From assembly GCA_022841905.1 (NCBI GenBank), contig JALHQO010000003.1:108236-172235 (forward strand): a DNA stretch of 64,000 nt, in the 5' to 3' direction. This document shows, piece by piece, positions 16,312 to 55,018 of this stretch; the first letter of the stretch is position 1; each line of letters begins with the position of its first letter. The notes beneath the pieces are model-generated. The model made no database searches. It was not told the origin of the DNA and was given only the letters and a program-made list of their open reading frames with translations. This DNA comes from Hyphomonadaceae bacterium (GTDB lineage Bacteria; Pseudomonadota; Alphaproteobacteria; Caulobacterales; Aquidulcibacteraceae). The translations under genes were made by a program, and so were the position numbers.

Positions 16312-17415
16312 CTAACTCTTAACGGAGCCTAACCTGTTCACGTCGCCCCGTCGCGACAGTCCGAACGCCTCCAGTTCCGGCGACGGTTTGCCGTTCAGCC
16401 ATTCTTCCGCCAATTCGCCGAACACCGGCGCATATTTGAAGCCATGCCCGGAGCAGGCGGAGAACATCAGCACGCGCTCGTGCGCCGCGCTCGGCGCGAT
16501 GAGGAAATGCTCATCCGGCGTCACCGTGTAGAGGCAGCGCGCCATGCGCACAGGTACCGGATCGTGCTTCGGCAACAGCATCTCGACCTGTTCGCCCAAT
16601 TGCGCCGCATCGTCATCGTCCGGCTCGCGCACGTTGTCGGGATCGGTTGCGCCGCCGACGGAGTGCAGGCCCAATTTGTACAAGCCGCGCGGCGAAGGCA
16701 TGCCATAGACGCCGACTTCATTGTCGACGCAAATCACTGGCAAAAGCCGCGGGTTCTCGGTTTTGAACCACCCCACCACGCGCCGCTTCACCGCAAGCCG
16801 GCCCGCAAACTCCGGCAACAGCCGCGCGCCCCAAGCGCCGCCCGCGACAATTACCGCATCGAAGTCGCGCTTATCGCCATTGATCACAAGCGATGGGCCA
16901 TCGATGGAACCCTCGATCTTCAAGCCATGATACAATTTCGCGCCCCAGCGCGGCGCCCGGCGCAATAGAAACGCGCGCGTTGCATCGGCTGCGATGACGC
17001 CGCTATCTTCTTGCCGGAACGCGTCCCAATCGTAGGGGAGCGCGATGTAGCCGCGCGTGAGCGGGTGGATCGCATCGCCCCGCAGCGCCGCTGCCGGCCG
17101 CTTGCTCATGCGCACACACGCTTCCACGAACGGCGAGCCTTGCGGCCCCGCCATCAGCCCGCCCGTCCACTCGATCAGTGGCTGGCCGGCCAAGCCCTCC
17201 CAGGTGCGCCAGAGATCGCCCGCGCGCCGCGCCAGCTTCACGTAAACGTCGCCTTCGCCGGGCGTCATGCGCATGATGCGCGTGTCGCCGTGCGAGGAGC
17301 CGTGCGTGTGCATCGGCTCGAACTGCTCGAACCCGAACACCTCGTGCCCAGCCAAAGCCAGCCGCGCGCAAATGCTCAAGCCAGCGACGCCCAGACCGAC
17401 AACAGCGACCTTCAT
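16312..17415 (-). CDS. FAD-dependent oxidoreductase, MSOX/MTOX (sarcosine/N-methyltryptophan oxidase) family
   Basis: 367 aa from MKVAVVGLG. The Rossmann motif VGLGVAGLSICARLALAG is at the N-terminus, followed by FEQFEPMHTHGSSHGDTRIMR, characteristic of monomeric sarcosine oxidase relatives. The Cys in RCLYTVTPDEHFLIA corresponds to the covalent 8a-S-cysteinyl-FAD site, and FSACSGHGFKYAPVFGELAEEWL closes the fold. The family oxidises secondary amines to imines with H2O2 release; which N-methyl amine is used is unknown. It is divergent from DUF817, 56 bp apart. Confidence 0.88.
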   Translation of the reverse strand: MKVAVVGLGVAGLSICARLALAGHEVFGFEQFEPMHTHGSSHGDTRIMRMTPGEGDVYVKLARRAGDLWRTWEGLAGQPLIEWTGGLMAGPQGSPFVEACVRMSKRPAAALRGDAIHPLTRGYIALPYDWDAFRQEDSGVIAADATRAFLLRRAPRWGAKLYHGLKIEGSIDGPSLVINGDKRDFDAVIVAGGAWGARLLPEFAGRLAVKRRVVGWFKTENPRLLPVICVDNEVGVYGMPSPRGLYKLGLHSVGGATDPDNVREPDDDDAAQLGEQVEMLLPKHDPVPVRMARCLYTVTPDEHFLIAPSAAHERVLMFSACSGHGFKYAPVFGELAEEWLNGKPSPELEAFGLSRRGDVNRLGSVKS

Positions 17416-17471
17416 CGAGGCCCTCATACGCGGGATTACGCCTCTCTGGAAACCGGCTAGCGTCGCGGCCG

Positions 17472-53222: not shown

Positions 53223-53299
53223 CTGGGCGAGAATCGCGCGATACGCAAGGGAGCGTTGACAGCGCGGCGAACACGTTTCTCATGCGCCTCCGAGGGATC

Positions 53300-54424
53300 A
53301 TGCACACACGACGGACACTGATGGCGCTGGGCGCAGCGGGTTTTGCCTCGTCCTGTGCCGCGACGCGCGGCTTTGGCGATGGACTGATGCGCGATATCGG
53401 GCGGCCGGACACGCGCACGCGGCTGCCGCCGGTGTTTGTGTCGGAAGACCGGATCATCCGCATCGATGTCGGCTTGCGTCCGTTCCGGCCGAGCGGCTTT
53501 CGCGTCGCGCGCGAAGCGTTGGGGGAAAAGACACTCGTCCATAATTACGGCCATGGCGGCGGCGGCATTACGCTGTCTTGGGGCACGGCCAAACTCGCCG
53601 TCGATCTTGGCTTCAATGCCGAGCAGCCCGATTGCGCTGTGCTTGGTTGCGGCGCTGTCGGCCTCGCCACGGCGCGGTTGCTTCAGGAGCGCGGCGCACG
53701 GGTGCGCATCTACGCGAAAGATCTGCCGCCGAACACCACGTCCAACGTCGCCGGCGCGCAATGGTGGCCGGCTTCGGTGTTCGACCGCGATCGCGTGACG
53801 CCGGCATTCATTGCGCAGCACTTCGAGGCTGCTCAGTTCGCCTTCCGGCGCTATCAGAGCATGGTCGGCGATGCTTACGGCATAAGCTGGGAGACCAATT
53901 ACAGCCTCTCGAATCGCGCCGCCTCATCTTACCCCGCCGCCGAAGACGATCCGATCCGAGCGCTCGTCGTCAACCAACACGATCTGACGCCGCTGGAGCA
54001 CAATTTCCCGCACCCATTCGTGCGCCGCTTCGACACGATGATGATCGAAACGCCGCTCTATCTGCGCCGCATGGAAGTGGATGTGCGTAATGCGGGCGCG
54101 GAGATTGTCGTGCGTGAATTTGCGGATATCGCGCAGGTGCAAGCGTTGCCGGAGCGGACGATTTTCAACTGCACCGGCCTCGGCGCCGGACGATTGTTCG
54201 GCGATACCGAGATCATGCCAGTGCGCGGACAACTCGCCATTCTGCTGCCGCAGCCGGAGGTCGACTACAACACCATCGCGCGCGAGGGCTACATGTTCGG
54301 CCGTCGCGACGGCATCGTGCTTGGTGGGACCTTCGAACGGGGAGAGTGGTCGCTTGAGCCCGATCCCGCCGCGATTCAGCGGATCATGGACGGGCATCGC
54401 GGCATTTTCAGCGCGATGGTTTAG
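53300..54424 (+). CDS. Exported D-amino-acid-oxidase-like flavoprotein, circularly permuted
   Basis: 374 aa from the second Met, with GAGGG upstream. Tat-type lipoprotein signal: [17 protein letters not shown]. The DAO/DASPO family fold is clear, but the order is changed. Residues about 55-105 hold [11 protein letters not shown] and [18 protein letters not shown], which in ordinary DAO form the C-terminus. Only then comes the Rossmann start [17 protein letters not shown] (about 112-128) and [12 protein letters not shown], and the protein ends with [14 protein letters not shown] and [10 protein letters not shown]. The DAO catalytic Arg context (GLRPFRP) is kept. Confidence 0.85.
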
Positions 54425-54885
54425 ATCGGCATGAAGAGAACGCGGCCGCCGCGTGCGTTCGCGAGCGTGCGCGCCAGGCGGCAATCGCTCTCCTCAGGCT
54501 GGACCGATGCATCGACGCCGTCGATCCAGGCGCGGCAATAACCCGGACGCGGAAGAGCGTTGGCGGGGACGCCGGTGAAATCGTTGCGGCCTTCGAAGGA
54601 GGCGCGTTCGACGACGCCCTCAAGCGAGCGTTCCAGTACTTGGCCGCCCCAGCGTTGCGCGACCCATTCAGCGTGTTCGCATTCCATCGCCGCCGGCTGC
54701 TTATCCAGCGCTTCATAGTGAATGCGGCACTGGCCCAGTTCGAGCTGATTAACGACCATTTCAGTGGCTGGTTGCGGCGCCATTTGCGCGCTGGCGTTGT
54801 CGGCGCGCATCGAGGCGACGCCTGCACCGCCAAGCGCGATTAGTGCGAGCGCTGTAGTGAAACCGGAGGCCGCTAATCGTTTCAT
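54421..54885 (-). CDS. Hypothetical exported protein
   Basis: 154 aa from MKRLAASG. A signal peptide ([16 protein letters not shown]) leads to a mature domain with six Cys: [38 protein letters not shown] and [22 protein letters not shown]. The even number and spacing suggest disulfides in the periplasm. No family is recognised. It shares a TTAG stop overlap with the permuted oxidase. Confidence 0.6.
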
Positions 54886-55018
54886 GTATCTCAAACTCAC
54901 AGCACGCACGCCCGTTCCTGAGTGCAGGATGAATATAGGCGCCCTGTGGTATTCAGGCCGTGACTTTGGTCATGCGAGGATTTCGCGTTGCGCGAGAAGT
55001 CAGGCGCTCGCCGCGATT

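Follow-up and report, generated by a model that had tools for sequence, protein, structure and literature searches.

A conserved circular permutation of the D-amino-acid oxidase family with a predicted export leader in most members read

Can a DAO-family flavoprotein be built with its pieces in a different linear order? DAO is a textbook flavoenzyme, and its chain is described with the flavin adenine dinucleotide (FAD) motif first. The question is raised by a gene at 53300..54424 in a 64,000-nucleotide stretch of contig JALHQO010000003.1 from a Hyphomonadaceae bacterium (the whole stretch is called the window here), which encodes a 374-residue protein with this motif behind a block that in DAO comes last. 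We consider it about 85% probable that the gene encodes a naturally circularly permuted FAD enzyme of the D-amino-acid oxidase (DAAO) and D-aspartate oxidase (DASPO) family, for which the fold, export, D-amino-acid oxidation and a single origin by duplication are predicted. As judged from sequence, the circular permutation is real and conserved, and most of the members read carry a putative export leader.

Swapped order of the block and the core

Three kinds of comparison point to a permuted chain. First, DAO-family homology spans both the FAD and the substrate regions of the window protein, and the canonical linear order (Rossmann motif first, Arg-Pro block last) is absent from it; it is therefore a permuted variant of the family and not a canonical member. 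The best match in the PDB by phmmer was human DASPO (6rkf), which was aligned in two stretches of swapped order, the core (query 112-362 against chain 15-263; independent E-value, i-E, 2e-19) and the block (query 53-101 against chain 280-331; i-E 1e-6). By these alignments, the swapped order is far above chance expectation. Both pieces were significant and swapped in four of five phmmer alignments (6rkf, fungal 7ct4, 8hy5 and human DAAO 6kbp), and with a 17-row profile 17 DASPO/DAAO chain sequences were likewise matched in two stretches, the best stretch being mostly core. The Pfam DAO profile, which itself starts with the Rossmann motif, scored 110.1 bits (cut-off 27.9) in two stretches, the best of which placed residues 111-366 on model positions 1-293; in the genome of origin, model positions 295-353 (C3:161652-161843) directly precede positions 1-302 (C3:161865-162659). 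Sequence searches of the PDB met no chain in the permuted order, and such a chain may still exist there.

Second, the order was examined with two profiles cut from the 17-row alignment, one for the block (48-106) and one for the core (107-366). Both pieces were found in one open reading frame (ORF) at 82 distinct loci, with the block first in 67 and last in 15; the permuted and canonical classes are defined by this order itself. Four duplicate records, two of the window (L029, L040) and two of L016 and L014 (L070, L090), are not counted among the 67 and are likewise permuted. One candidate, G786, was rejected as permuted because it is canonical when read on its own strand. Each permuted ORF has a single block match and a single core match, and the profile search found no second block copy within any ORF classed as permuted. 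On the permuted side of an 82-row tree, described below, these proteins form a large clade of 61 (support 94) and a small clade of 6 (support 98).

Third, the junctions are consistent with this order. In canonical proteins, the gap from core to block is 7 residues in 13 of 15 cases (5 and 25 in the other two), and the new ends of the permuted proteins map to this 7-residue stretch. Where the old termini meet, the median number of added residues is 0 (range -2 to 36; 4 in all six small-clade proteins), and C-terminal tails extend 5-36 residues past the core profile across the 67. Such an anatomy is that of a clean circular permutation as far as the alignments tell. By homology, the canonical C-terminal segment, which bears the GHGG flavin loop and the putative substrate-carboxylate Arg, is now N-terminal. 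Its predicted terminal helix leads directly to the Rossmann strand found at the N-terminus of canonical chains, and the loop that joins the last core helix to the Arg-Pro strand holds the new ends.

These results agree with the initial annotation, which had placed the DAO terminal block ahead of the Rossmann motif (here GLRPFRP... at residues 58-95 and GCGAVG at 116-121) and had the chain ending where DAO would enter that block; the end lies 24 residues past GGTFERGEW. Its reading as a circular permutation is borne out by the swapped homology to solved DASPO/DAAO, by the 67 against 15 loci, and by the predicted model in its secondary structure and core fold, and the search that it proposed for full-length homologues of the same order returned the 67 distinct loci. 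In that model (predicted template-modelling score 0.83), the moved block has strands at 52-62, 67-74 and 77-84 and a helix at 93-104, and the chain ends in a helix at 356-373.

Active site, leader and likely function

By phmmer alignment, R60 corresponds to Arg283 of human DAAO, which we take to be the residue that binds the substrate carboxylate, and Y331 to Tyr228, presumably an active-site Tyr. Residues R60, P61, G84-H85-G86-G87, G89, W94, G95, Rossmann G116/G118/G121, S148, D302 and G310 are invariant in 67/67 permuted proteins, R63 is kept in 66, Y323 is Tyr in 65 and Y83 is kept in 63. The window protein carries GLRPFR and YGHGGGG, fitting the motifs GxRPxR and YGHGGxG, of which the first Gly of GxRPxR is conserved in less than 85%. 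An excerpt of PMC9844085 presents both motifs as signatures of bacterial DAAO that also occur in some glycine oxidases, and it describes the active-site Tyr as unconserved.

A leader was scored by a regular expression (twin Arg followed by an 11-residue uncharged hydrophobic stretch). A leader of the twin-arginine translocation (Tat) type was found by this rule in 60/61 proteins of the large clade, with a lipobox as well in 41, including the window protein; the sole exception, L059, has an in-frame stop before its block. In the 17-sequence alignment, R4 and R5 are invariant and C19 is conserved at 90% or more. In the window protein, the Tat lipoprotein signal of the initial annotation corresponds to twin Arg at 4-5 and a lipobox-like ASSC ending in Cys19, a weaker form of lipobox with Ala at the -3 position. 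The rule was satisfied by one of the six small-clade proteins (L056) and by 0/15 canonical proteins. A Tat lipoprotein-like leader is, by these predictions, a conserved trait of the large clade, and the permutation is independent of export because the permuted sister clade has the leader in only 1/6.

We propose that the permuted chain keeps the DAO fold, that it would be folded with FAD bound in the cytoplasm, exported by Tat and tethered to the membrane by the lipidated Cys. Outside the cytoplasm, its substrates would be amino acids, with D-amino acids the most likely, which it would oxidise to the imino acid and then the 2-oxo acid; O2 or a respiratory carrier, for example a cytochrome c, may accept the electrons. 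The likely extracytoplasmic place suggests that free D-amino acids are used, with cell walls or the environment as their source. In the acetic acid bacterium Asaia bogorensis, the released-fraction proteins include A0A060QKK3, named D-amino acid oxidase, according to an excerpt of PMC12502724.

Several results weigh against the reading as a permuted DAAO/DASPO-family enzyme. The moved block may occupy the DAO C-terminal place in three dimensions, and the support for this is indirect: Foldseek and VIA leave the block unaligned because both follow chain order, and in a core-only model the confidence drops along the whole core, which may come from the fewer alignment rows (9 against 17) alone. 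In R. gracilis 1c0i the core matches and the block pieces are non-significant (i-E 790 and 5.3). Y331 is Tyr in 41/67, and the equivalent of Tyr224 is unconserved; therefore the substrate may differ. Beyond close relatives, the neighbouring genes are mostly unrelated.

A serious alternative, which we hold to be somewhat improbable, is a permuted protein of DAO-like fold that works as a periplasmic dehydrogenase or as an oxidase of other amines, with cytochrome c or a quinone as acceptor. The Tat leader and the variable Tyr228 equivalent favour it, as do the ThiO and D-amino-acid dehydrogenase profiles, which match under their cut-offs, and a Kozakia plasmid (L036:1852-9101), where an S9 peptidase, the permuted DAO, a cytochrome c directly downstream, a CocE-type hydrolase and a TonB receptor are encoded. 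However, the nearest solved relatives by sequence and model comparisons are D-aspartate and D-amino-acid oxidases, and the two motifs are those of bacterial DAAO, though shared by some glycine oxidases (PMC9844085, excerpt).

Distribution and origin of the permuted order

Scanning of genome contigs yielded 16 loci with 51-95% identity in the best segment, all matched from query residue 1-42 to 373-374; by record title, 13 are Alphaproteobacteria or subgroups, one is Bryobacterales (L014) and two are Verrucomicrobiales (L015, L016). In the plasmid collection, 51 records had a match. Among the eight read, five are permuted (Niveispirillum, Rhizobium, Bradyrhizobium, Kozakia and the actinomycete Nonomuraea), two canonical (L038, L039) and one a frameshifted permuted copy (Mesorhizobium, L037); four further plasmid records, read as controls, are canonical. 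The Mesorhizobium copy (L037:3920-4983), with its frameshift near GxGxxG, is annotated as two FAD-dependent oxidoreductases. A natural split gene was rejected there, since the first ORF spans query 56-121 and the next one starts at 116, so that the locus reads as a frameshifted copy; it is counted neither in the 67 nor in the 15.

For whole genomes, the counts are lower bounds, above all for canonical proteins, because the queries were permuted and scoring covered just a part of the first-look candidates in each genome. In the window's phylum, 28/398 genomes matched at E 0.001, and all 20 with a long match, its own included, are permuted. The phylum of L016's genome gave 45/240 matches (5 permuted, the centre included, and 1 canonical) and that of L014's genome 58/247 (20 permuted, the centre included, and 8 canonical). 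The remaining matches, G782 among them, are short and were left unclassified. Four permuted copies (L095, L138, L139, L140) occur in a single genome, G682, of the same phylum as L014's genome. When 4 of 10 first-look candidates were scored in its own genome, the window protein matched only itself at E 0.001. Another Pfam DAO protein of 371 residues, in canonical order, is encoded in the same window at 16312-17427 (-). Among 34 pattern matches in viral contigs, one relative was found (L145), with a stop codon inside the matched range, and PHROGs gave zero matches at E 0.001.

A maximum-likelihood tree of the core only (82 rows) separates permuted from canonical proteins by one branch, with a support of 99 in the SH-like approximate likelihood ratio test. 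The same split has 100/100 support in a 79-row tree, from which the long-branch canonical rows L136, L134 and L075, kept in the 82-row tree, were dropped. Canonical order is taken as ancestral because in the DAO superfamily the Rossmann motif comes first in the chain. The likely origin would be a tandem duplication after which the first copy lost its front and the second its back, and the permutation probably arose a single time, ahead of the split between the exported and the mostly leaderless clades. A repeated origin, for example separately in the two clades, is improbable. The clades are unlike in leader and neighbours, the tree is unrooted, and the canonical proteins are few (15) and came from searches with permuted-order queries; against this, the core-only tree has one order change, in 100% of 200 bootstrap trees, and both clades have their new ends in the same loop and short linkers (4 extra residues in 6/6 of the small clade). 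Finally, a chimaera, an assembly artefact or a decayed gene lacking its C-terminus and carrying an unrelated N-terminal block, suggested by the unusual order alone, can be dismissed: the same order recurs at 67 distinct loci in independent genomes, including the complete chromosome L009, which excludes the assembly error named by the initial annotation as a refuter, functional residues are invariant in both pieces, and selection on the window gene is strong (ratio of nonsynonymous to synonymous substitutions, dN/dS, 0.06-0.17 against five relatives).

Gene features, neighbours and known systems

The ORF runs from the ATG at 53300 to the stop at 54422-54424 (Table 1). An in-frame ATG at 53282, six codons upstream, is a possible alternative start; in L003 and L009 the sole start is the equivalent of 53300.

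Table 1 Features of the permuted gene and the thiamine-pyrophosphate enzyme genes beside its relatives
Feature	Position	Strand	Basis
Coding sequence, permuted DAO-family flavoprotein, 374 aa	53300..54424	+	homology; dN/dS 0.06-0.17
Putative twin-arginine leader, residues 1-19 (RR 4-5, lipobox-like ASSC, Cys19)	53300..53356	+	sequence, conservation
Moved block, residues 48-106: Arg-Pro strand, HNYGHGGGG, terminal helix	53441..53617	+	homology, profiles, model
Arg60 codon	53477..53479	+	phmmer alignment with human DAAO Arg283; R in 67/67 permuted proteins
DAO core, residues 107-366, Rossmann GxGxxG to GGTFERGEW	53618..54397	+	
GCGAVG, residues 116-121, FAD-binding Rossmann motif	53645..53662	+	G116, G118, G121 in 67/67
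New C-terminus, residues 367-374 and stop, end of last core helix	54398..54424	+	model helix; tails
Thiamine-pyrophosphate enzyme genes	L033:7068-8774, L034:6990-8690, L035:7063-8679, L037:5034-6782		

A convergent ORF of 162 residues at 54421-54909 (-) overlaps the DAO gene by 4 bases and has no Pfam match at E 0.001. Among the 16 genome-contig relatives, this ORF is kept in 11, a NUDIX gene in 11 and a cation-efflux gene in 12, which says little about function. A conserved operon for the exported clade was rejected, as the shared neighbours are confined to close relatives. A thiamine-pyrophosphate (TPP) enzyme gene directly follows the permuted DAO in four records of the mostly leaderless type from two phyla, namely Rhizobium, Bradyrhizobium, Nonomuraea and the frameshifted copy in Mesorhizobium. 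This count excludes the small-clade members L054, L056 and L074; in the flanks of two of these (L125, L124), the ORFs after the gene were unscanned or on the opposite strand. The mostly leaderless enzymes may hand a 2-oxo acid to the TPP enzyme. A broader proposal is that a single DAO-fold permutation founded an exported family in at least four bacterial phyla, working as a periplasmic D-amino-acid dehydrogenase that feeds cytochrome c, while the mostly leaderless sister clade gives 2-oxo acids to a TPP enzyme; we regard this combined scheme as tentative and rather doubtful.

In conclusion, a natural permutation with the catalytic residues kept offers a ready test of which chain connections are needed for folding, FAD loading and Tat export, and it exposes a family that databases label as ordinary FAD-dependent oxidoreductases. 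A search of the open-access PubMed Central literature, with papers seen in part, found no natural DAO permutation, which is no proof of absence. Compared with human DASPO (6rkf), the window protein has a swapped order of pieces, a putative Tat leader and new termini. Compared with DAAO (human, pig; fungal 7ct4, 1c0k), the order is swapped and the Tyr224 equivalent is unconserved. The glycine oxidase ThiO (4ysh, 1ng3) is more distant and has the canonical order. Canonical bacterial DAAO-like proteins, known here from 15 loci, share the GxGxxG motif, the Arg-Pro strand and the GHGG block with the window protein but, unlike it, carry the block at the C-terminus and match the Tat rule in none of the 15.
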